Shown: positions 3,236 through 40,828, counted from the stretch's first letter. The stretch: DNA of 64,000 nt from Paracholeplasma manati (GCF_025742995.1 NZ_JAOVQM010000002.1:372001-436000); one strand, 5' to 3'. A program made the numbers and translations. The notes: generated by a model from the letters alone, not told the origin.

Positions 3236-4177
3236 ATGAACAATCCGTATTTAAATCACGTTTCTAAAACACTAAAAGAAGAGTTTAATGTCGATGTCGT
3301 TGAAGACATTCTTTTGGTGCGCAAAGACCGCGTAATTTTGTATGGGGAAAGTAATTTATCTGAAGATAATATTTTATATGTCATCACGGGTACCTTACAA
3401 TTGATTGGACTCGCAGAAGCGTCATCCATCCAACTAACGGATTTACTAAAACGTTTTGAATATAACAATGCATACGCCGATGTGGCAGGAAAAACGGATT
3501 ATTATGGTTATGTCTATGGTGAATTGTTCAGTATAAGACCACAAACCAGTGTAACTTTCCCAATTCTAGCAGAACAACAACGCGTTTGGATTACGGTTTC
3601 GCGATTTGTGGTGGATGCAAATCCGGCACTATCAGCCTATTTCATCACCAATGTCAGTGATGTCATGGATGCGGAAGAACAAAACTATGCGAAATCGCAT
3701 CGTGATTCCTTAACAGGTTTATTCAATAAATACACCCTCGATTTTCATTATGGAAAACGATACAAAAATGAGAACTTTCATGTGATGTATCTCGATATCG
3801 ACAACTTCAAAGAAGTCAATGATCACGATGGACACGTCGCTGGTGATCAATGCCTCATCGCCTTCAGCAATATCCTGAAAAGTTACTCAAACGATCATAA
3901 ACATTTCTACCGTAATGGTGGCGATGAATTTGTGGGACTGTTATTTGATACAGAAGACCATGTGAGAGAAATGGCAGAAGGTATTTTAAGCCAAGTCCGA
4001 CAAATCCAGTCGCCGATTTCAAACACACGAATGACTGTATCGATGGGTATCGTTCAAGCGGATATGCGTCAAGATGTCATTCGAAAAGCCGATATGTTGT
4101 TGTATAAAGCAAAACGTATGGGCAAGAATCAATATATTTATGAAATTGAAAAAACTAGACAACATGAAGAGGCCTAA
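3236..4177 (+). CDS. GGDEF-domain diguanylate cyclase
   Basis: 313 residues. The C-terminal half (about residue 155 on) is a GGDEF domain: RDSLTGLFNK at its start, the metal-binding YLDIDNFKEVND strand, and the signature NGGDEF near residue 227. The catalytic residues look intact, so it should condense two GTP to c-di-GMP. The RxxD product-inhibition site normally found just before GGDEF is absent (the preceding residues read NDHKHFYR). The N-terminal 150 residues are a soluble sensor-like region of no recognised family, and there are no membrane segments. GGGAGA precedes the ATG. It lies 17 bases after the lipoprotein gene and is probably cotranscribed with it. Confidence 0.88.
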   Translation: MNNPYLNHVSKTLKEEFNVDVVEDILLVRKDRVILYGESNLSEDNILYVITGTLQLIGLAEASSIQLTDLLKRFEYNNAYADVAGKTDYYGYVYGELFSIRPQTSVTFPILAEQQRVWITVSRFVVDANPALSAYFITNVSDVMDAEEQNYAKSHRDSLTGLFNKYTLDFHYGKRYKNENFHVMYLDIDNFKEVNDHDGHVAGDQCLIAFSNILKSYSNDHKHFYRNGGDEFVGLLFDTEDHVREMAEGILSQVRQIQSPISNTRMTVSMGIVQADMRQDVIRKADMLLYKAKRMGKNQYIYEIEKTRQHEEA

Positions 4178-5232: not shown

Positions 5233-5262
5233 TTGACGGTTATTTTTGAAAGATGGTATAAT
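5233..5262 (+). promoter_or_regulatory. Strong promoter of the surface-protein operon
   Basis: TTGACG (5233-5238) and a consensus TATAAT (5257-5262) with 18-base spacing, ending 53 bases before the first ATG. No further convincing promoter was seen in the short gaps down to 15491, so one polycistronic transcript of about 10 kb is likely. Confidence 0.8.
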
Positions 5263-5315
5263 TTAAACATCGAAAAGCCCCTTAACATAGTTAAGTGAAA
5301 GAGAGGAGAAACCAC

Positions 5316-5960
5316 ATGAACCACAAATCCATGAGTGTAACCATCATCATGTTCATTTTGTCGCTACTGGTTTTTTCTGCATCCTCTTTCGCATGGTTCG
5401 CATTATCTGATACTTCAAGGGTCAATGAGTTTGTGGTCCCAGTGAATAATTATGAAGCTGAGATTGTATTCCAAGTGCGTAAAAATGGTGGGTCATATTC
5501 AACCATCACCACAGAAGCAGAAATGACTGCCTTCTTGAACAATAGCTTACCAGGGGATTTATTTGATTTTATCGTAACCATCGAAAATCTTTCGACATCC
5601 TCAGTGGTTGCGAGCATATACTTCAATGACGTTACTAGTGATAACCCCAATGCGGGTTATGACATGCGCAATGTTTTTTATATCGTCGACGGAGAAGTGA
5701 GTGTAAACGCATCAGTGAATAATCTGCCACTCAATTCAACCACACCTCTTACATTTGAAGGACAAACTTTTTCCAACTATCGTTTGAATAACTTGATTGA
5801 TGCATCACAAGATATCACCATTATCACCAACGTTAATATCCCAATCAGTCAAATTGTCTTCATAGAATTTTCCATTCAAATGGATCCAAATACCAGTAAA
5901 CAAGAATACCAAGCAGGCATCATGCGCATCGCTTCATTGCTTGCAGTATTCGATGCCTAG
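5316..5960 (+). CDS. Secreted TasA/camelysin-like protein, first in operon
   Basis: 214 residues. The N-terminus has a hydrophobic core and then ASSFAWFALSDTS, resembling SipW-dependent signal peptides, which typically end in a (T/S)-x-A-(W/Y)-F motif. The mature part is beta-rich. It contains LPGDLFDFIVTIENLS near residue 72, the kind of strand described for TasA/camelysin jelly-roll subunits. I used the ATG at 5316 because GGAGAA lies just upstream; a GTG at 5295 precedes that site. It lacks the tryptophan-containing C-terminal tail of later operon members. Probable extracellular fibre or matrix component; that role is inference. Confidence 0.7.
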   Translation: MNHKSMSVTIIMFILSLLVFSASSFAWFALSDTSRVNEFVVPVNNYEAEIVFQVRKNGGSYSTITTEAEMTAFLNNSLPGDLFDFIVTIENLSTSSVVASIYFNDVTSDNPNAGYDMRNVFYIVDGEVSVNASVNNLPLNSTTPLTFEGQTFSNYRLNNLIDASQDITIITNVNIPISQIVFIEFSIQMDPNTSKQEYQAGIMRIASLLAVFDA

Positions 5961-5972
5961 GAGGGAACACAT

Positions 5973-6554
5973 ATGAACAAAAGACTCTTAGGTTTGACCA
6001 TCAGTATGGTCTTAACATTGATTTTATTAGCAACCACGGTATATGCCTATTATTTTGATCGTAAAGAAACCGGCAGTATCGATTTAACCTTAGGAGAAGT
6101 CTCCTTCACTTGGGACGGTGCGTTTGTGACCGATTTCGTGATGCCAGCACAAGAACTGGTTGAAACCCCATTTTCATTAAACAATGCTTCATCGGTCGAC
6201 ACAGAACTTCGATTCAGTGTCACCGCATCTACTTCATTATTGGGTACTGTGAATTTAGAAGACATTTTTACAGTGTATGAATTTAATAGTGACTGGGTGT
6301 TGGAAACGGATGGTTATTATTACTACCGTGGTTCCAATACAGATTCGATTTCAGAACCTGGCAAATACAAGATTCCGACATCGGTTCTAAACATTCCAGT
6401 GTTATTGTCCCTTAAACTCGATGGCTATGTGATTCGTAATGAACACATCGGTCAAACCGTTTCATTGACATTAACGTTTCAAGCCAAACAAGGTCCTTTC
6501 ATCGATTGGGCTACCTTAGGGTCAACCAATTACGACTTTTCTACTGGACAATAA
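5973..6554 (+). CDS. Secreted TasA/camelysin-like protein, second in operon
   Basis: 193 residues starting MNKRLLGL, a hydrophobic core, then TVYAYYFDRKETGSIDLTLG. This is close to the SipW-cognate signal pattern (A-Y-F-x-D followed by a short strand). FVMPAQELVETPFSLNNAS near residue 50 matches the place where TasA-like proteins have their first interaction strand. The C-terminus extends past the last strand into a tail beginning GPFIDWATLG, which resembles the tails of the fourth and fifth genes. AGGAGGG overlaps the upstream stop codon, giving strong translation 12 bases after the previous gene. Confidence 0.72.
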   Translation: MNKRLLGLTISMVLTLILLATTVYAYYFDRKETGSIDLTLGEVSFTWDGAFVTDFVMPAQELVETPFSLNNASSVDTELRFSVTASTSLLGTVNLEDIFTVYEFNSDWVLETDGYYYYRGSNTDSISEPGKYKIPTSVLNIPVLLSLKLDGYVIRNEHIGQTVSLTLTFQAKQGPFIDWATLGSTNYDFSTGQ

Positions 6555-6578
6555 CGTCCATTAACAGGAGGTGACACC

Positions 6579-7148
6579 ATGAAAAAATTAAGATTGATTG
6601 AAAGTATCGTGATTTTTGTCATGGTGCTCGCATTGCTCACCACTGGCATTTTCGCTTGGATCATCGCGAGATTCCAATCCGAACCCGTGGTGTTTACCAG
6701 TGGTGCCATCACGGTGGACGCGGCACTATATTCAGCCAATGACGCCAATTACGATGGTGTATTGGATGGTGGGTATACTGAAATTACCGCTGCTGGGATT
6801 GATTTTACGAACTTAATGCCTGGCCAAGTCTATACCTTTAGATTGATTATTGATAACACAGGTACAGCCGATGGTCATTTAGACCTCACGGTGAAAGACA
6901 TATTACCAACCGATAATGCATTATTCAATTTATTGACCATTGATTTTGTGCATCCGACGACATCGGTCAATACAAGTCTTGACTTGAATTCAACCGATGT
7001 GATCCTCTTTAGCAATTATGTTTTACCTTTTGAAGGGTCCTTGACGTTTGATTTCACGATTCAAATTGAACCTACCATCAACAACACCCTACATAGCGAG
7101 TCGATTACCATTGGGTATTTTGAAGTCCGCTTGGATCAAATCCCATAA
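6579..7148 (+). CDS. Secreted TasA/camelysin-like protein, third in operon
   Basis: 189 residues with a signal region (MKKLRLIES, a hydrophobic core, GIFAWIIARF), followed by a strand (FTSGAITVDAAL). It then has LMPGQVYTFRLIIDNTGTA near residue 83, the clearest TasA/camelysin-like segment of the four: a proline-glycine turn followed by an alternating strand ending in NTG. The protein ends soon after the last strand with no tryptophan tail. A perfect AGGAGGTGA precedes the ATG, suggesting high expression. Predicted exported fibre-type subunit. Confidence 0.75.
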   Translation: MKKLRLIESIVIFVMVLALLTTGIFAWIIARFQSEPVVFTSGAITVDAALYSANDANYDGVLDGGYTEITAAGIDFTNLMPGQVYTFRLIIDNTGTADGHLDLTVKDILPTDNALFNLLTIDFVHPTTSVNTSLDLNSTDVILFSNYVLPFEGSLTFDFTIQIEPTINNTLHSESITIGYFEVRLDQIP

Positions 7149-7165
7149 ACTTAAAGGAGGTTAAC

Positions 7166-7879
7166 ATGAAGACAAAAAATTTAACTAAAATGATCATCAC
7201 GTTCGTCTTGTTGGCCTCGTTAGCCGTGGTCTCGATTGCAGGATGGCTAACAAACACAAATACGTCTAATCCGGTGGTTACTGTCGGTGAAGTCAGTGTT
7301 CAAATTGAAGCGTATTTTGAATATTACGATGAATTTGACGTTTTACAAACAAAAACCACCGATATTGAATATGAATATACCGTGGATGGTCAAGGCACAT
7401 TTACCAAGTTTGGCATTTATCGTGTCAATTTGTCGAATCCAGATGACCCACAATTCATCAAGAACTTAAGAGTTAACATCGATGTATTAAGCAATGTCGA
7501 ATCTTATATGAGAATTGGGGTTTATGAACAATTGACCCTCTCCTATATTTCTGGTGGTAAGAGTTATGAGGTTGCGATTACACAACCGACCAAAATGCCA
7601 TTCAATTATATGGATACCAACGATATGGTTAACCCATATTTCTATGATAATCGCGATAACGATGGCTTTTTCTATTACACCAACACAGTCAAGAGAAATC
7701 CAGATACGACCCCTCAAGAAATCACATTCGTAGCGGATTTTGGTAGTACACCATTCAACCTTTATGATGCAAGCTACAGTTTACAGTTGGGATTCATCAT
7801 TGAAGCAGTTCAATCCATAGAAGGACCAGTCATCAACTGGGGCTTGCCAAATAGACCTTGGGACGACGGAGCGTGGTAA
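7166..7879 (+). CDS. Secreted TasA-like protein, fourth in operon
   Basis: 237 residues. The N-terminus has a hydrophobic core, then SIAGWLTNTNTSNPVVTVGEV, again a SipW-like signal followed by a valine-rich strand. The body is larger and more acidic and aromatic than its three neighbours, with a Tyr/Asp/Asn-rich segment at residues 150-175. The C-terminus carries EGPVINWGLPNRPWDDGAW, a tryptophan-containing tail comparable to those of the second and fifth genes. AAAGGAGG precedes the ATG. It ends one base before the giant gene, so the two are closely coupled. Confidence 0.7.
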   Translation: MKTKNLTKMIITFVLLASLAVVSIAGWLTNTNTSNPVVTVGEVSVQIEAYFEYYDEFDVLQTKTTDIEYEYTVDGQGTFTKFGIYRVNLSNPDDPQFIKNLRVNIDVLSNVESYMRIGVYEQLTLSYISGGKSYEVAITQPTKMPFNYMDTNDMVNPYFYDNRDNDGFFYYTNTVKRNPDTTPQEITFVADFGSTPFNLYDASYSLQLGFIIEAVQSIEGPVINWGLPNRPWDDGAW

Positions 7880-7880
7880 T

Positions 7881-10800
7881 ATGATTAAAAATATCAGTAA
7901 AAAAATCATCATCACTGCCATCATGTCTGTGTTTATCCTCGCAGTCTTTTTTGAGATTGCGAAAAGAGTCCCTATAACACCAGGCACAGATGGTCAAGTA
8001 CAAACATCCGTATTCAATAACGGATTTTTCGATACGAACTTGAGTAAGGCCAACAAAGCAGAACCGATGGTGACCTTTAGTGAAGTCCAAACCATCATCG
8101 TTACACATATGAATCAAACCTTCGCAACACCAGATGCTAGAGATACCTCGATGCAAGCGGCACTCGCAACCTTAATTGGCACCAAACGCATCGCGATTGA
8201 AACCGCCGATGATTTATATAATTTCTCAACCTCAGTATCTTATAACTGGGTCAATACAGCGAATTATGCCAACTATTTCTACTATAAAACTGTCAGTTAT
8301 TTACTTGATCAAGATTATGCATTGGTTTCTGATATTGACTATAGTGACATGCGTGCGAAAACATTCAATCCCATCGGTATCGATTTAGATTTACCAATCG
8401 ACTACGATCCAAATACACCGGGCGACCAAGACCCGATTTTCCCGTTTACTGGCAGTTTTGATGGTCAAGGATTTAGAATTTCAAACTTATATGTTTCTGG
8501 GTATAGCTACATCACAGTGGATTATTCATTCGATGGCACTGAACAAAATAGCCAGATTTTTTCATTGATACAAAGTTATTCGATGTTCGCTTTAATTGGC
8601 GAAACGGGTGTGGTTAAAAACCTTACCGTTAGAAATCCTAACTATGAATTATTGGATGCGCCAGAAGGGTTAACCAAAGCAGCCATGTTTGTAGGTACCA
8701 ATCACGGTACCATTTATAACGTTTCAGTCATCGATACCAAAACCAACGCACTTGGGGAATCGATTGCTGGGATCCGTTTTAATGTTCTTTTCGTTCAATC
8801 CGGTACAACATTTACAGCGGCAGGATTTGCACATACGAACTCAACCACAGGGAAGATTTATAATTCCTTCTTTGTGAGTGATAAAGTCATGTCGGACGGT
8901 TCACGTTCTAGATTCAATATTAGACCATTTGTCTATAACAATAGTGGCACCATCAGTGGTGTCGCTTATGACCAATTGGTTATCCCAAATGTGGATTCAA
9001 CCACACTCCCACAAAGCTTTCCAAATTACACCCAAGCACAATTTAGAAGTGGTACGGCTTCAGGCAGTCCGATTTCAATCAACAATACCAACTTACAAAG
9101 CTTATTTGGTGAAACCAGACAATGGAATTTCTATGTCCAAGATGGCTTCCCAATCATGTTTAAACTCAATTACGTTTCTGGCGCATTTGAACTTGCTAAT
9201 GAAATGGATTTAATCGCTTTTAATAAGCTTATAAACTACAATACCCCTTATAATGGGGTTACTTATGATTCACATAACTATCGACTTGTCGATGATATTG
9301 ATATGAAAAATATCAAAGGCTATGTCACACCAACCAAAGAGTTTAAAGGCACATTTAGTGGCGGTACCAGTGAGTTTTCAAGCTCAAGTACAAATACCAA
9401 TAAATACATCTATAATATGACCATCAATAAACCAGTGGTCATCGGTAATAACTATTACATGGGTTTATTGAGCGCATCCTCTGGTACGGTTAAGAACATC
9501 AACCTATTAAATAACCAAATGATCCTAACTTCTACGGGAGACAATTACGGTAAATCCTTCTATGTCGGTTCAATTGCCGGTTTATCTACAGGTACCATTC
9601 GCAATGTTGTGAGTGATACAGACATTGATTTGGGTGAAGATGCCATCGGTAGAAGTTACGTCGGTGGGATTGCTGGTATGGCCTATGGATCTGTTACATA
9701 CGTGGCAAATCTAGGTGCAATCAATGGCAATGCCCATGATTTCAATAATTTAACCATCAATGGTTTATTCTCAATTGGTGGAATTGTTGGATCCACGAAC
9801 TCAACCACGTTGGTATTGACCAACAGCATAAACACAGGGGAAATCCGCGGAGTCGGTCTAGCTAGCGGTAGCCAATTTAATGTTGCAGCCGGCAGTTCAA
9901 TCCAAAATCGCGTCGGAGGTATCATTGGTGAAGTTAATAACATTTCAGGTACCAACCATTCATTCTACTATGTAACCAATGAAGGTAAAGTTGCAGCCAA
10001 TGACTTTACTGGAAAATCAGGTGGTACGGTACAAAACTTTATTGGTGGTATTTTTGGTGAAGTCCAAGGGTTGGCTTTCCAAATCACCAACGCTACAAAT
10101 CCAATTACCTTTAGAAATGGCCGTTGGCAAAATACAGGCATCATTGAAGCCAACCACATCAATACATTCACAACCACCAATAGTGCAGGGATTGGGGTTG
10201 TTTCAACGACCACAACCAAAGCAGAATTTACTTATATGACCAACAGTGGTGGGTTTAATTTCCCTAATTTGAACTATCAAAACCACAATACATATATATT
10301 TTATTCCGCAACCATATTGGATAATTCCACAGGTGGTGTGAAACTATCGAGAGCCTATAATACAGCGGATTTCACATTCGGACCAAGTTATTTTAACAAT
10401 ACATCCGGTATATCGGTATCCACCATTCGAATTGCACCATTCTTTGTTTCTAAAAATAGTGTAGACAAAGATCTATTATTCGTTGAAAATCAAGGTGAAA
10501 TCCTCGTCGGTAGCATTTCAGCAACCACATCCAATGTGGCTGTTGAACTCGAAGTAGCTGGTATTACCTTGTCTAATAACGTTTATTACAACAACGTCAT
10601 TAATAGCGGTGATATTCGTTTATTGAGACTAAACCAATCCAGTGAAGTATGGGTATCTGGTATTTCTAAACGCGTATCCTATAATACAACTTTAAATGAT
10701 GAGTACACGATGAAAAACTCTATCAATAAAGGTACCATTATCACAGCATTGATAACAGGTAACACGACCGTTACAGGTAGCAGTGCTAGCGGTGTTTACA

Positions 10801-13800
10801 GCAGCACCATGACCAGTAGAAATGTCTATGTTGGAGGATTGGTCAATGTCAACTCTGGGGAAATGACCAACGTCTTTAACTCGGGTACATTGTCATCTAC
10901 CGATATTAACAGCACAGGATTACAACACATCACAGGGACAGCCAATTTATTTGCTGGTGGTGTCGCAACATTTAACTATAACTTAATTCAAGACGCAGCC
11001 AATACAGGTGTTTTGAACTTCACCAATACAACATCAACAGCAACTGCAGTTGCGTTGGTTGCCGGAACCACCGACTTGTTCGGGGGGATGGTTTATGCCT
11101 ATAATGCCGGCTTTGTCTTAGGTGGTGTCGTCGCCGCATTCGGTGATGACGCAGCGAATATTCTTTCCGGTCATGGCCAAAATACAGGCATGATTGCGAA
11201 ACTCATTGACTCCGCTAACAATGGTGATGTATATGGTAAAGCACCTGAATATGTTCGTTCTGGTGGTGTTTTAGGTATTGGTTTAGGAACAGAAGTCACA
11301 GCAGGCTCAGATAACGCAACCAGTACCAATGGTGTCATCCGCAAATTCGCAACGAATACCACAGGTCCTGATGACCCGGTTGCAAATTCCATCCTATCGA
11401 ATGGATTAAACTTCGGTGATATTTACGCCTTTACTGGTGTTAGAGCAGCCTATACAACCACCAATGAACGTTTAGGTATCTATGGTTCCGCTGGTGGGGT
11501 TATCGCGTATGGTCTATGTAAGATGACGCGTATGTTAAACCACGGGAAGATTGCATCAAATGATGTCGCCGGTGGCATCATTGGGGCAACCTACATTTTC
11601 GGTAAAGCCGATGGTAATGGTGCGATGCCAGTTACTTATGTCGATATCGATACAGCCGTTCACTATGGTCAAGTCGAAGCCTTCATTCAAACACAATATG
11701 CAAACGCAACATTTGAAACCAGAGACTCATCCACTTTATATTACACAGGTTCTGCAAGAACTTCATTCTTATTTGGAACATACTCATCCATTACCATAGG
11801 TGCAAAACCTGGTTATGGCGGTATTTTCGGCCGTTTCCAACGTGGTGCTTATGGGGTCATGACCTCCAGTACTTTCAAAAACATTTTAAATATGGACGCC
11901 AATATCGATATGGTTGGACGTGCCGACCAAACATCGGTTGGTAGTTTCTTCTTTTATCGATTTGGTCAAGATGGTGTTGAAGATACATTCTATTCAGCAA
12001 GAACTGGGGATACTTCTACGGCCGTGATTGTTGGTTTTAATGAAGTCGTAAGAACGTATAATTATTTAACCAACATTACTGCGACCTTCTATTTCAGACG
12101 TGAATTGATTCTACCTCAAAATGAATATATTTATTTGGTCGTAAGAATTGCGGGTAGTGGTAGAGGTAACTATACCACAGACACAGCACGTGTAATTGGT
12201 GAATACTTACCATTATCCAATAATTCATATACAGATTTTCAATACAATCACTTGTTTACCAATAAGGTGACAGGTGCAACAACCAACATTACAACAACAA
12301 CCAGTTTTCCAACCATCATGACCTCAACCAGTAATACCTTAAGAGAGAACTATCAAGATTTTGGTTTTACAGAACAAGACATGATTAATCTTTTTGCTGG
12401 AACGACATCCACAAATATCACACGCTCTATTGTTAGAAATACACCATTCTCCATTACGGTACGTACTGGGGGTGCACAAAGTGCATATAACTTCCCTAAA
12501 GTTCAAGATCTAACTGTGGGGGATTCGGGGTATGATCCGTCGAAATTATACATTTTTGACCCTTCATTCCCACTCATGAATCCATCTCAATCGGACTTCA
12601 TTTACAGAGTAACCAAAGAAGTCCTCGCAGATCGATTTAGATTGGCTGCAGATCCATTGTTTAAAAATGGTATGTATGTTCTCGCATCTTCTAAAGGACG
12701 AGAAGCTGGTGCTGTTCTACCTGCTAACCTATCCATCAATAATTTCTATGGTTTAAAAGAACCAGATACACCAGTGTACTATAATTTAGATAGCATTTCT
12801 GCCAGTAATCTGAATGTACCTTCTGTACAAGACTTACCATCAGACCCACTCTACCTATCTTATAGTTCCATGTTCCAAGTGCGTAAGAGCGATAAGTCCT
12901 TGGTTCTACCAAAACAAGATGAACCAACCATTGGGGATTTGGTTTTATATGACCCAAATGGTATTAGTCCAACCCTTGAAGGCGGCACCATCGATAATAC
13001 AGCGAAGACGATCACATTCAATGTTTCGCAATCCGCTTTCCCAAGCAGTACTGTCACCTATGAAGCCCTTGAAGCAACCCTATCGGAAAACGCGGTTATC
13101 GCGGTATCTGGCATTACATCTGTGACCCATGCGGGTTTTAAAACGGCTTATAATGCCAGAACTTCAAACATTCTAGATGGGGCTTACAAGTTCAGTTATA
13201 CAGGTACGTTTGACGCATTCAATAAAGTACAATTCACGATGACTGTGTACTCTGAAGTCGCTGCCGATGACCCAAATCTCGTCACGATTTATAAGACGGA
13301 TTATACGGTAACCATCAATCGAATTGCACAAAACTTAAATGTTACATTAAATCAAATCCTGATGAATTCGACGAATGTCACACCGTTACCTTCGTTGGTT
13401 GGTTCTACCTATACGGTTTCACCATCCTTCCCATTGTCACCGAGTGGTACGATTACCGTTCGATTCATTGATAACAACACCCAATTACCATTAGGTCACA
13501 ATTTGACCATTCACCGTTTGACTAAAGATGGCGATACGGTAGATTCAGCGTATTACACACTCAATTTGACCCCGAAGGCTTCCAATAATATCTTTGGGTT
13601 CGAAATGACTTTAAGCGATGAATTGGAAAGTGGCGTCTATCGAATCGTGTTCAGTTATTACAATAGCTCAACACAGTTCAATTTGGATTTCACCAAACAA
13701 GCGTCATCCAACCGTTTGATTACGAGTGTCTCCTATAGCACATATAGTGCCGATGCATTAGGCGGACTCACATTCACACCAACAGGGACAAACTTCACCA

Positions 13801-15491
13801 CATTCCTTGAATTTGGTGAAATACTTGAAGGTGTGTTGTTGAATTCGAACCGTACCATGACAGTAACGCCGGTCACCAATGGCTCTAGTTTGAACTATAT
13901 CAATACCTTAGAATCCGTTGAGTTATCACTCGATGGCAATACGTTGATGATTCTAACCATTTCACCTTTCGCATCCATCACGAACGCGACTGTAAGATAC
14001 GAGTATGGTGGCGATGGCCGAAAGAGTTATATTTTCAATTACACCATCTTGAATGAGTTGAGTCAGTCCACGGTGATTACACATACCGTCACTGAAAGAG
14101 AATTGGCCGACTTCATCGTTTACAAAAATGGTAACCAACAATTCGCTTATCCAGTCGAAGTGACGAGAGAAGCATTATCGACCAATATTCAAATTGACTT
14201 TAGGTTGTTAGATGTTCAGTTATATCACGATATCACCACCGTTATTACCGATTTGAATGGTGTGTTCGTACCTACGACAGATGAAATTGAATTCTTCATT
14301 GACGATGCTTACGCGATGGATATCACATTTGAACTCGAAGTAGGTGAAAAGACTTACGCATTTACATTGAGTCGTGAAGGTGGTGTCACTTATGATTTAG
14401 GCAGTGTCGTGATTCGAAAGAATTTAGGTGTCAGTGCTTACCTCAACGATATCCGCTTCCAAATCAACAGTGAAATTACCTTGAAATACCCTGAAATATA
14501 CCAAATCAATTCGGATGGCAGTACAGTTACACCAGCCGTTTATGATCCGCGTGTCTTCTTTGACGGCATCGATTACGATGACGCGGACACCAATGGCGTT
14601 CAGTACTTTAGAATCAATGGTGAAGTTTCCGATATCGACTTATCCAGTTATTATCCAGACTTTACATTGCCGATTGGCGCGGTAATTCAACGTCAAGTTG
14701 GTCCAAACAGTTGGTCAAATGACTTAGCAGGTAACTTTACAAGTGAAATTGAAGATGTTAATACCGTGGTTAGATATCGTATATTATCAGAACAAACCAA
14801 CGCGAACAACCCAGGTGTATTGACCGATATTGTCGATTCTACCATCGTTTATTACGATTTAACCGTCATCGATATCTTGTATAATCTAACCATTCGTTTC
14901 ACATTGTTCTACCGCTTTGAAAATGGCACCATCGTACCGGCAGGGGACCCAACCTCACCAATCAACAGCAGTGTCATCTTAATCATCGTTAAAAACTATG
15001 AAACCGATGAATCCTTTACCCCATCCATCACGATTGACCCAGTCACTGGCAGAATCATTTATCCGTATGAGGGTGAAATCTTTGGATATACGGCAGGGGT
15101 CAGAAATCAATCCACCCTATTTTATTATCCATTACCAGCCAACATCACCGATTACTTGTATACCTTTGGTAAGAATAAGACCGGTGTCTATAACTTCTCG
15201 ATTGTGAGCCCTAAATATACTGGGGTTACGACTGGAAACTTGGTCAATGGCTTACGTTATGATTACAATATATACTTGCGTACGGGTGTGACCGGCACAG
15301 GTACTTACCCTTGGAATGATGACGATTATAAATTACCTGAATTCGATACCAATGGTGAAATCATTGGTAAATATTACTATGTATTAGGTACCAACCGACA
15401 AATCATCCGCGAATTCGCGATTGTCATTGAAGAATCCACATTGGGTAGCCAATGGGGCTTGTACGATGACTACACCAGTTGGGACAATTAA
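7881..15491 (+). CDS. Giant secreted GLUG/beta-helix surface protein
   Basis: 2536 residues, the largest gene here. An N-terminal hydrophobic segment (residues 8-26) looks like an export signal or anchor. Two similar entry domains start near residues 102 and 437. Each has a LV(S/D)DID strand, an FxGTFSGG or FTGSFDGQ turn, and a GxVKN(L/I) motif, as in GLUG-type beta-helix proteins. Repetitive Asn/Thr/Gly-rich coils with GGIVG or GGIIG turns continue to about residue 1350. The second half is Ig- or cadherin-like, beta-rich and acidic. There is no LPXTG motif and no C-terminal membrane helix; it ends in a Trp-containing tail. Only a weak GGAG precedes the ATG. Likely adhesin or matrix scaffold working with the four small secreted proteins. 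Confidence 0.8.
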   Translation: MIKNISKKIIITAIMSVFILAVFFEIAKRVPITPGTDGQVQTSVFNNGFFDTNLSKANKAEPMVTFSEVQTIIVTHMNQTFATPDARDTSMQAALATLIGTKRIAIETADDLYNFSTSVSYNWVNTANYANYFYYKTVSYLLDQDYALVSDIDYSDMRAKTFNPIGIDLDLPIDYDPNTPGDQDPIFPFTGSFDGQGFRISNLYVSGYSYITVDYSFDGTEQNSQIFSLIQSYSMFALIGETGVVKNLTVRNPNYELLDAPEGLTKAAMFVGTNHGTIYNVSVIDTKTNALGESIAGIRFNVLFVQSGTTFTAAGFAHTNSTTGKIYNSFFVSDKVMSDGSRSRFNIRPFVYNNSGTISGVAYDQLVIPNVDSTTLPQSFPNYTQAQFRSGTASGSPISINNTNLQSLFGETRQWNFYVQDGFPIMFKLNYVSGAFELANEMDLIAFNKLINYNTPYNGVTYDSHNYRLVDDIDMKNIKGYVTPTKEFKGTFSGGTSEFSSSSTNTNKYIYNMTINKPVVIGNNYYMGLLSASSGTVKNINLLNNQMILTSTGDNYGKSFYVGSIAGLSTGTIRNVVSDTDIDLGEDAIGRSYVGGIAGMAYGSVTYVANLGAINGNAHDFNNLTINGLFSIGGIVGSTNSTTLVLTNSINTGEIRGVGLASGSQFNVAAGSSIQNRVGGIIGEVNNISGTNHSFYYVTNEGKVAANDFTGKSGGTVQNFIGGIFGEVQGLAFQITNATNPITFRNGRWQNTGIIEANHINTFTTTNSAGIGVVSTTTTKAEFTYMTNSGGFNFPNLNYQNHNTYIFYSATILDNSTGGVKLSRAYNTADFTFGPSYFNNTSGISVSTIRIAPFFVSKNSVDKDLLFVENQGEILVGSISATTSNVAVELEVAGITLSNNVYYNNVINSGDIRLLRLNQSSEVWVSGISKRVSYNTTLNDEYTMKNSINKGTIITALITGNTTVTGSSASGVYSSTMTSRNVYVGGLVNVNSGEMTNVFNSGTLSSTDINSTGLQHITGTANLFAGGVATFNYNLIQDAANTGVLNFTNTTSTATAVALVAGTTDLFGGMVYAYNAGFVLGGVVAAFGDDAANILSGHGQNTGMIAKLIDSANNGDVYGKAPEYVRSGGVLGIGLGTEVTAGSDNATSTNGVIRKFATNTTGPDDPVANSILSNGLNFGDIYAFTGVRAAYTTTNERLGIYGSAGGVIAYGLCKMTRMLNHGKIASNDVAGGIIGATYIFGKADGNGAMPVTYVDIDTAVHYGQVEAFIQTQYANATFETRDSSTLYYTGSARTSFLFGTYSSITIGAKPGYGGIFGRFQRGAYGVMTSSTFKNILNMDANIDMVGRADQTSVGSFFFYRFGQDGVEDTFYSARTGDTSTAVIVGFNEVVRTYNYLTNITATFYFRRELILPQNEYIYLVVRIAGSGRGNYTTDTARVIGEYLPLSNNSYTDFQYNHLFTNKVTGATTNITTTTSFPTIMTSTSNTLRENYQDFGFTEQDMINLFAGTTSTNITRSIVRNTPFSITVRTGGAQSAYNFPKVQDLTVGDSGYDPSKLYIFDPSFPLMNPSQSDFIYRVTKEVLADRFRLAADPLFKNGMYVLASSKGREAGAVLPANLSINNFYGLKEPDTPVYYNLDSISASNLNVPSVQDLPSDPLYLSYSSMFQVRKSDKSLVLPKQDEPTIGDLVLYDPNGISPTLEGGTIDNTAKTITFNVSQSAFPSSTVTYEALEATLSENAVIAVSGITSVTHAGFKTAYNARTSNILDGAYKFSYTGTFDAFNKVQFTMTVYSEVAADDPNLVTIYKTDYTVTINRIAQNLNVTLNQILMNSTNVTPLPSLVGSTYTVSPSFPLSPSGTITVRFIDNNTQLPLGHNLTIHRLTKDGDTVDSAYYTLNLTPKASNNIFGFEMTLSDELESGVYRIVFSYYNSSTQFNLDFTKQASSNRLITSVSYSTYSADALGGLTFTPTGTNFTTFLEFGEILEGVLLNSNRTMTVTPVTNGSSLNYINTLESVELSLDGNTLMILTISPFASITNATVRYEYGGDGRKSYIFNYTILNELSQSTVITHTVTERELADFIVYKNGNQQFAYPVEVTREALSTNIQIDFRLLDVQLYHDITTVITDLNGVFVPTTDEIEFFIDDAYAMDITFELEVGEKTYAFTLSREGGVTYDLGSVVIRKNLGVSAYLNDIRFQINSEITLKYPEIYQINSDGSTVTPAVYDPRVFFDGIDYDDADTNGVQYFRINGEVSDIDLSSYYPDFTLPIGAVIQRQVGPNSWSNDLAGNFTSEIEDVNTVVRYRILSEQTNANNPGVLTDIVDSTIVYYDLTVIDILYNLTIRFTLFYRFENGTIVPAGDPTSPINSSVILIIVKNYETDESFTPSITIDPVTGRIIYPYEGEIFGYTAGVRNQSTLFYYPLPANITDYLYTFGKNKTGVYNFSIVSPKYTGVTTGNLVNGLRYDYNIYLRTGVTGTGTYPWNDDDYKLPEFDTNGEIIGKYYYVLGTNRQIIREFAIVIEESTLGSQWGLYDDYTSWDN

Positions 15492-15500
15492 AGTGTTTAA

Positions 15501-15533
15501 AGGCATACTTTGAAAAAAGTGTGTCTTTTTTTT
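15501..15533 (+). terminator. Operon-end intrinsic terminator
   Basis: Ten-base stem AGGCATACTT / AAGTGTGTCT (two G-U pairs) followed by eight T, just after the giant gene. Confidence 0.85.
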
Positions 15534-15592: not shown

Positions 15593-15898
15593 ATGATGGA
15601 TCCGCAATTGAAAAAAGGCTTTCTTGAGATACTCGTTTTAGCATCCTTAAAGGAAGAACCATCTTATGGGTATAAAATCATCCAGGATGTGTCTTCAATC
15701 ATCGATATCTCTGAATCGACATTATACCCCATATTGAAACGACTTGAACAACAAGCATTCGTGAAGACTTATACAGAACAACACCAATCTCGATTGAGAA
15801 AGTATTACATGATTACCACTTTAGGTAAGCATGAGATTGAAAAAGCACGGGCAGATTTTAGTGAGATATCCAAAATTTACCGCTATATTTTGAGGTGA
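15593..15898 (+). CDS. padR: PadR-family transcriptional regulator
   Basis: 101 residues, a short PadR-type winged-helix repressor (PadR-s2 length). LKKGFLEILVLASLKEEPSYGYKI at the start and ISESTLYPILKRLEQQ in the recognition-helix region are diagnostic. YMITTLGKHEIE forms the wing. GGGGAGG supports either this ATG or the next one three bases later. It is the first gene of a padR-DUF1700-DUF4097 operon, an arrangement common in Bacillota envelope-stress loci. Its promoter holds a palindrome that is probably its own operator. Confidence 0.9.
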   Translation: MMDPQLKKGFLEILVLASLKEEPSYGYKIIQDVSSIIDISESTLYPILKRLEQQAFVKTYTEQHQSRLRKYYMITTLGKHEIEKARADFSEISKIYRYILR

Positions 15899-15901
15899 CC
15901 T

Positions 15902-16444
15902 ATGACAAAACTTGAATTTTTACAACAATTAAAAACGGGTTTATCTGCTTATAGCGATCAAGCAGAAATTCTCAACTATTATGAGGAATTGATCGATGAC
16001 GCGGTTTCAAATGGCGAGGTTGAATCCGAATTCATTCATAAACTCGGCAGTATCGAACAAATCATCCGTACATTGAAAAAAGACGCAAATTTCAAACTGA
16101 AGGTGAAAAACCGTGAGAACTATATGCTGCGTGAAGTGATTTCACAAGCATCTAAAGGTATCGCATTATTCTTTACCATCATTGGTGTCATCGTCTTAGG
16201 TAGCATCAGCATTTCATTCATTTCGAGTGGTGGCGTATCCTTCATCACTTACCTCGTATTTTTACTAACGAAGGATGTATCTAGAGTTGAAGTACTCATC
16301 TATTATGTGAGTTCGATGGTTCTGGGTATTGGATTGGTGATGGTGGGTGTAGTCATCATTACCACACTCATTAAAAAAACAAAAATTTGGCTAGACAAAG
16401 CCATTGTTAAAATTGATCATATCATCAAAAGGAGACAAAAATGA
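15902..16444 (+). CDS. DUF1700 (HAAS-domain) membrane protein
   Basis: 180 residues. Residues 1-60 form the helical HAAS/DUF1700 domain (MTKLEFLQQLKTGLS, then the acidic EILNYYEELIDDA motif). Two or three transmembrane helices follow, about residues 83-105 and 125-160, then a basic cytoplasmic tail. The family is consistently encoded between PadR regulators and DUF4097 proteins and is thought to work in envelope stress sensing. It starts three bases after padR with GAGGTGA spanning the junction, and overlaps the next gene by four bases (ATGA). Confidence 0.85.
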   Translation: MTKLEFLQQLKTGLSAYSDQAEILNYYEELIDDAVSNGEVESEFIHKLGSIEQIIRTLKKDANFKLKVKNRENYMLREVISQASKGIALFFTIIGVIVLGSISISFISSGGVSFITYLVFLLTKDVSRVEVLIYYVSSMVLGIGLVMVGVVIITTLIKKTKIWLDKAIVKIDHIIKRRQK

Positions 16445-17322
16445 AAACCTTATTAAAAGTTGGTATCATTTTCATCATCATCGGTGCGATATCCGTAACG
16501 GTATTCGGATTGATGGCACAACCCTATCTAGAAGAACAAATGGAATATACAGATCAAGCGTTTGATTATGAAGGTAGTCTATTCAGTCGAATTGATTTAT
16601 CTTTTTACAACAACCCAGTGGTCATCAAACCAAGCACGGATGATCAAATCCATATTCGATTTAAAACAGATCAATACGAAGAAATCACTTTGACAGAAGA
16701 CAATCAAATTCTATCGATTGTGGTGACGAGTGATTGGTGGGATCAGTTTAGAAACCCACTACATTGGTTTAACTTTGGGAATATCATGGTCAATCGAACC
16801 GTCACGGTCGAACTACCAAGCATTCTGTACCATTTAAGCGTAAGAACGTCTAATGGTGCGATTTCACTCGATGATTTATCGTTAGAAAGTGTGATTTTAC
16901 GCACATCCAATGGTAGAGTGAGTATTGAAAATGTCAGTATTCCAACCGTAACCATGTCATCGTCTAATGGCAAACTTTATTTGAAGGATGTCGTATCCAC
17001 AACAGTGGATTTAGACACCTCCAATGGTGAAATCGAACTCATCAATGTTGAAGCCTATTCAATTGACGCGGAAACATCCAATGGTCCGATCAATGCGAGT
17101 AGGATTGATGTAGAAGACTTTAGGGTCAGTACGTCAAATGGGGCGATTGAACTATCGATTCAAGGCATCTTTGAAGACTATAAAGTGAAAACAAAAACAT
17201 CGAACGGTACCGTTAAAATCGATGGTAGTACTTATGGTAATGATACATATCATACAACCAAAGTACCGTATGTAGAAGCCATCACCTCTAACGGGAACAT
17301 TCAAATCCACTTTGAAGACTAG
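16441..17322 (+). CDS. DUF4097 beta-solenoid envelope protein
   Basis: 293 residues. An N-terminal transmembrane segment (residues 5-27) is followed by an exported beta-rich domain. Eight (T/S)SNG turns occur, and the first six are spaced exactly 19 residues apart, which points to a regular beta-solenoid with one turn per rung. This matches the DUF4097/LiaX-like family associated with antimicrobial-peptide and envelope-stress responses. The repeats begin near residue 138. The gene is coupled to DUF1700 by an ATGA overlap and ends in a terminator that includes its stop codon. Confidence 0.85.
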   Translation: MKTLLKVGIIFIIIGAISVTVFGLMAQPYLEEQMEYTDQAFDYEGSLFSRIDLSFYNNPVVIKPSTDDQIHIRFKTDQYEEITLTEDNQILSIVVTSDWWDQFRNPLHWFNFGNIMVNRTVTVELPSILYHLSVRTSNGAISLDDLSLESVILRTSNGRVSIENVSIPTVTMSSSNGKLYLKDVVSTTVDLDTSNGEIELINVEAYSIDAETSNGPINASRIDVEDFRVSTSNGAIELSIQGIFEDYKVKTKTSNGTVKIDGSTYGNDTYHTTKVPYVEAITSNGNIQIHFED

Positions 17323-30785: not shown

Positions 30786-30798
30786 GTAGCTGAGTTAA

Positions 30799-30908
30799 TA
30801 CTTCGGGGCAAGGTGAAATTCCTTGATCGGCGGTAAAGTCCGCGAACCTTTGGGTTGAACTGGTGCAATTCCAGTACCGACAGTATAGTCTGGATGGGAG
30901 AAGAAAGA
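30799..30908 (+). promoter_or_regulatory. FMN riboswitch (RFN element)
   Basis: The conserved RFN blocks are visible in order: CTTCGGGGCAAGGTGAAATT, ATCGGCGGTAAAGTCCGCGA, GAACTGGTGCAATTCCAGT, ACCGACAGTATAGTCTGGAT and GGGAGAAGAAAG. It binds FMN and, in this position, should promote formation of the downstream terminator. It precedes the riboflavin transporter gene, so high FMN is expected to shut off uptake. Confidence 0.96.
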
Positions 30909-30928
30909 GGTTTTTTAGCCTGTTTTTT

Positions 30929-40621: not shown

Positions 40622-40828
40622 CAATAGAGCGAAGAACAAGACAAGTAATGAAGACCAAAAGATAGAGAGATCAGTTAGGTGAAAGTGATCACGGTTTGAA
40701 TGAAGCTACTTGGGAGCAATGGTACACTGGCCTTAACAGTACAATGAAGGGCTAATCCAATGGGTTAGAACTAAGGTGGTACCGCGATTAACATCGTCCT
40801 TAGAATGCAAATTCTATGGACTTTTTTT
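40622..40828 (+). promoter_or_regulatory. Alanine T-box riboswitch
   Basis: The antiterminator bulge sequence AAGGTGGTACCGCG lies at 40773-40786. It is followed by a terminator stem GTCCTTAGAA / TTCTATGGAC (40796-40821) and seven T. A GCT triplet (40705-40707) in the context GAAGCTAC is the likely alanine specifier, pairing with the uncharged tRNA-Ala anticodon. Uncharged tRNA would allow readthrough into alaS. Confidence 0.93.

Follow-up and report, generated by a model that had tools for sequence, protein, structure and literature searches.

A five-gene operon of exported proteins in Paracholeplasma manati as likely cargo of a CoCoPALM-type surface-assembly system

McrBC systems defend bacteria against phage, and CoCoNuT systems are predicted to do the same. 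The CoCoPALM class, in which a McrB-like GTPase with a transmembrane and coiled-coil N-terminus is accompanied by a DUF2357 partner and signal peptidases, has been outlined in a few sentences, with the rest deferred to a later publication (Bell et al. 2024, eLife 13:RP94800, PMC11090510). The locus described here lies in a 64,000-nucleotide stretch of the Paracholeplasma manati genome (GCF_025742995.1, NZ_JAOVQM010000002.1:372001-436000; hereafter the window) and consists of five same-strand genes, g1 to g4 and the giant gene g5. Judged from the genomes compared, these five genes, singled out in an initial annotation of the window, are half of a larger system, the other half of which brings together a McrB/McrC-like pair with SipW peptidases and the major exported proteins, besides GGDEF-EAL genes and a riboswitch for cyclic di-GMP (c-di-GMP). 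The operon is likely to encode the structural parts, or cargo, of a surface-assembly system of CoCoPALM type that depends on SipW and is controlled by c-di-GMP, and the features on which this assignment is based are observed ones: gene content and order, the riboswitch, the class of the peptidases, and the homology of the ATPase and the DUF2357 protein.

Core and cargo in related genomes

The window corresponds to C2:372001-436000 of a genome of 1.87 Mb that is 99% complete (G000; G and L labels denote the genomes and loci compared). The core of the system is found on another contig, C3 (L006, 9612-17666), where genes for a SipW-type peptidase (SipWb), a DUF2357 protein, an AAA protein, a second SipW-type peptidase (SipWa) and the proteins pA, pB and pC lie together, with a c-di-GMP-I riboswitch and a GGDEF-EAL gene upstream. 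In G001, which belongs to another genus, the two halves are joined: seven genes (pC, pB, pA, SipWa, AAA, DUF2357 and SipWb) stand on the same strand directly before the five-gene module (L019), preceded in turn by the end of an EAL-type gene. Here pC is a membrane protein, and the signal peptides of pB and pA carry AWI and AWF. The same or a closely similar contiguous layout recurs in G016, G023, G034, G037, G058 and G100, in G222 from another family, and in further families of the class (G420, G332, G262, G265 and G347). These contiguous loci show losses and substitutions among g1 to g4, and in five genomes (G016, G023, G222, G420 and G332) a third SipW-like gene lies inside the cargo.

A search for the five-gene order in relatives had been proposed with the initial annotation, and the order was indeed recovered, both next to the core in other genera and within the genus itself. 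The closest named relatives are the metagenome-assembled genomes Acholeplasmataceae bacterium UBA6235, whose giant is 98% identical, and UBA6150; order and strand of all five genes are kept in both, as well as in G005, G007 and G008. Of the order, 160 genomes were searched, of which 97 have a match to the AAA profile and 60 to that of the giant; class-wide, the counts were 124 of 395 genomes for the AAA profile (at E<=1e-90) and 51 of 395, in seven families, for the giant. Giant and AAA gene are usually neighbours: 39 of the 53 tabulated giant hits, from 28 genomes, follow an AAA gene on the same strand at a distance of 2.3-5.9 kb downstream. One shares a contig with an AAA gene but sits elsewhere on it, and 13 have no AAA gene on their contig. 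Five of these 13 (G000 and G005 to G008) are true splits inside longer contigs; G004 is the same species on short contigs, and the other unlinked giants are mostly on short or truncated contigs. In one congener (G003:C1, L088) core and cargo are contiguous, and the divergent giant is represented by a 550-aa open reading frame (ORF) followed by one of more than 1449 aa.

The split invites a different reading, in which the window's genus uses the five genes as a stand-alone surface adhesin operon, independently of the C3 core and with processing by a general signal peptidase. The separate location, the operon's own sigma-70 promoter and the lack of a riboswitch before the cargo in this genus speak for it, as does the number of split genomes (at least five, the contigs of G004 being short). 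That said, each split genome also has a C3-type core or at any rate the ATPase of such a core, the signal peptides are of SipW type, and the contiguous state is widespread in both order and class, so the separation of core and cargo looks derived. We regard stand-alone use as unlikely.

The core itself matches the CoCoPALM type in its ATPase domain, its DUF2357 partner and its signal peptidases. Residues 198-368 of the ATPase match the McrB structures 6hz4, 6ut6 and 7vsr in a profile search of the Protein Data Bank (PDB; E 0.004-0.009, with 6hz4 at 0.004), and the NCBIfam McrB model gives a weak 17.7 bits. The signature TANKDDST, which fits both NxxD and the NxD form that marks CoCoPALM, aligns without gaps to the NTADRS of McrB, and the N-terminus reads as a hydrophobic segment with a charged stretch of coiled-coil-like character after it. 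The partner protein matches DUF2357 (PF09823, 43.7 bits against a cut-off of 23.3), and its C-terminal half likewise appears coiled-coil-like. Both C3 peptidases, which adjoin this pair, pass the SipW model TIGR02228 (52.0 and 61.5 bits against 51.85) and show the hallmark of the ER-type enzymes, Ser/His in place of Ser/Lys, Ser-Met and His being invariant in 10 sequences from four genomes. The exported proteins pA and pB are homologues (100% in profile comparison).

That the ATPase descends from McrB (6hz4, E 0.004) and that its partner has a DUF2357 domain could also point to an anti-phage system whose exported proteins form a protective coat or act as effectors. However, the Pfam scan detected no nuclease domain on the DUF2357 protein, the ATPase is membrane-anchored, and the regular company of SipW enzymes, exported proteins, GGDEF-EAL genes and a c-di-GMP riboswitch suits sessile or matrix control better, which makes a defence role very improbable. 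A second type of AAA/DUF2357 locus, with no adjoining SipW gene, occurs in G003, G005 and G008 (L089, L091 and L092), in the order ORF of more than 2000 aa (cut by the end of the stretch analysed), membrane protein of about 455 aa, AAA, DUF2357. GLUG proteins of 5600-6260 aa are encoded on the same contig as such a locus (G008:C38) or elsewhere (G005:C3).

Riboswitches before core and cargo

The leader of the C3 core holds a c-di-GMP-I aptamer (RF01051, 67.2 bits) and then a 13-bp terminator hairpin, the 5' arm of which, AGCCAGTTGTCA, overlaps the 3' strand of the aptamer. Once folded, the aptamer should thus leave no room for the terminator, and the anatomy of the leader predicts a switch that is ON with c-di-GMP. 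At least one c-di-GMP-I aptamer was present in 20 of the 21 pC leaders scanned, the exception being the first of two L084 loci. Some leaders carry tandem arrays, with four aptamers before a single pC gene in G037:C2 (L084:17426-17877) and three in G034 (L132:18481-18807). In eight loci (L088, L094, L095, L096, L132, L143, L144 and L150) an extra aptamer lies directly before the cargo, and L088 has two riboswitches there. GGDEF and EAL domains were confirmed among neighbouring genes at L006, L088, L099, L100 and L131. The sole other c-di-GMP-I riboswitch found in the window's genome is at C12:8483-8557 (L135).

The operon and its products

The existence of the operon is confirmed by a gene order conserved within the genus, by a conserved promoter and by purifying selection on all five genes. 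As the initial annotation had it, a single strong promoter serves genes 1-25 bases apart with no terminator among them; from g1 to the giant the gaps measure 12, 24, 17 and 1 nt, and the hairpin scan found no terminator-like structure within them; a 13-bp one follows the giant (Table 1). Promoter-like sites in the region are no more frequent than chance would give (46 against 50 expected), so the weight rests on conservation of the -10 element, GATGGTATAATT, kept in the leaders of five genomes of the genus. The most likely start of g1 is the ATG at 5316, behind AGAGGAGA, rather than the GTG at 5295. Against UBA6150, dN/dS from g1 to the giant is 0.037, 0.057, 0.063, 0.062 and 0.080, estimates that are rough because dS exceeds 1.6.

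Table 1. Features of the operon (window coordinates)
Feature	Position	Strand	Remarks
Promoter	5233..5262	+	TTGACG-18 nt-TATAAT, extended -10 (TG); 11/12 matches, joint best in promoter scan
g1, 214 aa, exported	5316..5960	+	signal peptide end SFAWF; remote relative of g3
g2, 193 aa, exported	5973..6554	+	signal peptide end VYAYYF; probable remote camelysin/TasA relative
g3, 189 aa, exported	6579..7148	+	signal peptide end IFAWII; probable remote camelysin/TasA relative
g4, 237 aa, exported	7166..7879	+	signal peptide end IAGWL; conserved C-terminal W-G and P-W motifs
Giant (g5), 2536 aa	7881..15491	+	N-terminal hydrophobic helix, GLUG-like repeats, one Cys; proposed surface scaffold/adhesin
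Terminator-like hairpin, operon end	15499..15528	+	13 bp plus T run; hairpin scan

Each of the four small proteins begins with basic residues and a single hydrophobic helix, which ends in AWF (g1), AYYF (g2), AWII (g3) or AGWL (g4), and g1 orthologues are 26-88% identical. None exceeds a Pfam or NCBIfam cut-off when all window proteins are scanned. Kinship with TasA and camelysin, which the initial annotation had proposed, emerges from profile-profile comparison of mature sequences, with signal peptides cut, against a camelysin/TasA set made up of PF12389 matches from other genomes: g2 scored 88% (157 columns), g3 87% (71 columns), g1 50% and g4 3%, and g1 matched g3 at 96% over 162 columns. 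All four stayed below about 2% against the control profiles (SipW and pC). Proteins g2 and g3 are thus probably remote members of the TasA/camelysin superfamily, to which g1 is linked through g3; the comparison does not place g4 among them. A low-confidence structural model of g3 is all-beta after a helix (pLDDT 55.6, with only three close sequences as input) and has no PDB match at E<=0.001, and PDB sequence searches with the g1 to g4 profiles returned noise only. One relative with the giant system (G016) also has a separate cluster that passes the camelysin model (C1:484312-485112).

The giant has one hydrophobic helix at its N-terminus, which lacks a motif of the A-W/Y/F kind. Its size was as first annotated; the GLUG assignment made for it is borne out in some orthologues rather than in the protein in the window, which has no Pfam match and falls below the GLUG cut-off (PF07581, 20.5 bits), whereas orthologues in G034 (22.7 bits), G007 (21.7), G222 (23.5) and G037 pass it. 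Since the model passes only in some orthologues, a beta-helix is plausible. Orthologues are 29-98% identical, no paralogue was found in a search of the giant's own genome, and a structure prediction for residues 100-720 had a pLDDT of 29.8 (only three close sequences as input). A C-terminal tag common to g4 and the giant, suggested by eye from W-G motifs, was dropped at a profile probability of 1-2%.

Such a protein might also belong to a device for motility, predation or contact, of grappling or gliding kind and with the ATPase as motor, rather than to a static matrix or adhesin. The giant's size, its GLUG-like repeats and the membrane ATPase would fit, and the g3 profile does touch the Aureispira grappling hook protein at a non-significant E of 0.013. 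But that match is at noise level, and if c-di-GMP turns the riboswitch ON, as predicted, a sessile way of life is indicated; we consider a contact device quite improbable.

Two genes upstream of the operon, at 3236-4177, the window encodes a GGDEF protein with homologues near the operon in G007 and G008. Directly downstream (15593-17322), behind a promoter-like site of their own, are genes for a PadR regulator, a HAAS-domain membrane protein and a DUF4097 (LiaG-like) protein, a set conserved at this place in UBA6150 and G008. Elsewhere the window holds an FMN riboswitch (30795-30909) and a T-box leader (40623-40804).

Proposed mechanism, wall loss and known systems

In the mechanism that we propose for the cargo module and its core, rising c-di-GMP would prevent termination and switch on the core. 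The SipW enzymes would then cleave signal peptides of the A-W/Y/F kind and so set free beta-sandwich subunits, while the McrB/McrC-like complex might gate or drive assembly at the membrane. The subunits could polymerise, or form a base, and so hold out the giant repeat protein to serve as tether or adhesin; the cell would thereby gain an attachment or matrix layer. Secretion by the SipW pathway, as first annotated, is favoured by the two SipW-type peptidases encoded in the genome and by the adjacency of substrates and peptidases in other genera.

Several observations weigh against this assignment. Core and cargo are apart in the window's genus, and no c-di-GMP riboswitch was found in the cargo leaders scanned there, so functional coupling in this genus rests on the relatives. 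Some genomes (family f3; G014 and G021) have a core and no detected giant, and the giant is thus not required for the core. Parts of the initial annotation also fit loosely: the AWF or AYF ends that it names are approximate, and no window protein matched the SipW-signal model TIGR04088 (cut-off 19 bits) at E<=1, the g4 orthologue of G001 being borderline (20.2 bits in a genome search, 16.8 in a protein scan). All window proteins likewise miss the camelysin cut-off (PF12389, Peptidase_M73, 22.5 bits), g2 reaching 17.6 bits and the others giving no match; only the remote g2 orthologue of G222 passes, at 26.9 bits. The ATPase N-terminus has no Pfam match to FtsB/DivIC, though FtsB homology is part of the CoCoPALM description. 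Finally, we infer the formation of a fibre or tether from sequence. Loci L097 and L098 of family f3 combine core and riboswitch with several AWF/AWY-type proteins and no giant nearby, which indicates that the core can occur with other cargo; L102 is similar.

The initial annotation had placed these genes in a matrix or adhesion system for a wall-less cell. The host does appear to be wall-less, since the PF00905 transpeptidase is absent from G000; it is absent also from seven order-mates (G001, G003, G005, G008, G016, G034 and G037) and from G262, G265 and G282 of other families. Yet PF00905 is present in G222, G332, G420 and G214, of which the first three have the system with its giant and the last has the giant. 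From its distribution, then, the system is not special to wall-less cells, and on the simplest reading of these carriers the surface system probably predates wall loss. A broader proposal, which we put forward tentatively, is that a membrane ATPase of McrBC descent gave up nucleic-acid defence and came to serve as an engine under a c-di-GMP switch. Together with its dedicated SipW peptidases, this engine would assemble TasA-like subunits and the giant into a filament or tether on the cell surface, and wall-less Acholeplasmatales would have kept the older system as an anchoring or matrix layer. Because the locus occurs in relatives both with and without penicillin-binding transpeptidases, surface assembly before and after wall loss can be compared directly, and what a wall-less bacterium retains for attachment can be seen. 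The locus would link a protein related to a restriction enzyme with the making of surface structures that c-di-GMP controls, and would supply concrete cargo and regulation for a McrBC-derived class so far known in outline only.

We know of no riboswitch for the Bacillus tapA-sipW-tasA or B. cereus sipW-tasA-calY operons. Our search, which excluded subscription papers, preprints and supplements, found no paper that treats the cargo, the giant protein or the connection with the riboswitch, nor any literature on an Acholeplasma c-di-GMP riboswitch or on SipW together with McrB, c-di-GMP and a pilus. The core here shares with CoCoPALM the McrB-like AAA+ domain, the coiled-coil DUF2357 partner and the linked signal peptidases; unlike here, the main text on that class mentions neither secreted cargo nor a giant, and neither a c-di-GMP riboswitch nor GGDEF-EAL genes (PMC11090510). 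A further difference is that core and cargo lie apart in the window's genus. The Bacillus operons named above resemble the system in their SipW-type peptidase, A-W/Y/F signal peptides and remote camelysin/TasA kinship, but they have neither a McrB/McrC pair nor a giant repeat protein. Compared with tapA-sipW-tasA, moreover, the window operon lacks a sipW of its own, which lies inside the cargo in G016, G023 and G222, and its proteins fall under the family cut-offs. The giant recalls GLUG-repeat surface proteins (PF07581) as a very large exported repeat protein with orthologues over the Pfam cut-off, but is itself under that cut-off and belongs to an assembly locus rather than standing as a lone adhesin. 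As with adhesion genes under c-di-GMP-I (GEMM-I) riboswitches, aptamer and terminator lie upstream of surface genes; here, in contrast, up to four aptamers stand in tandem (G037).

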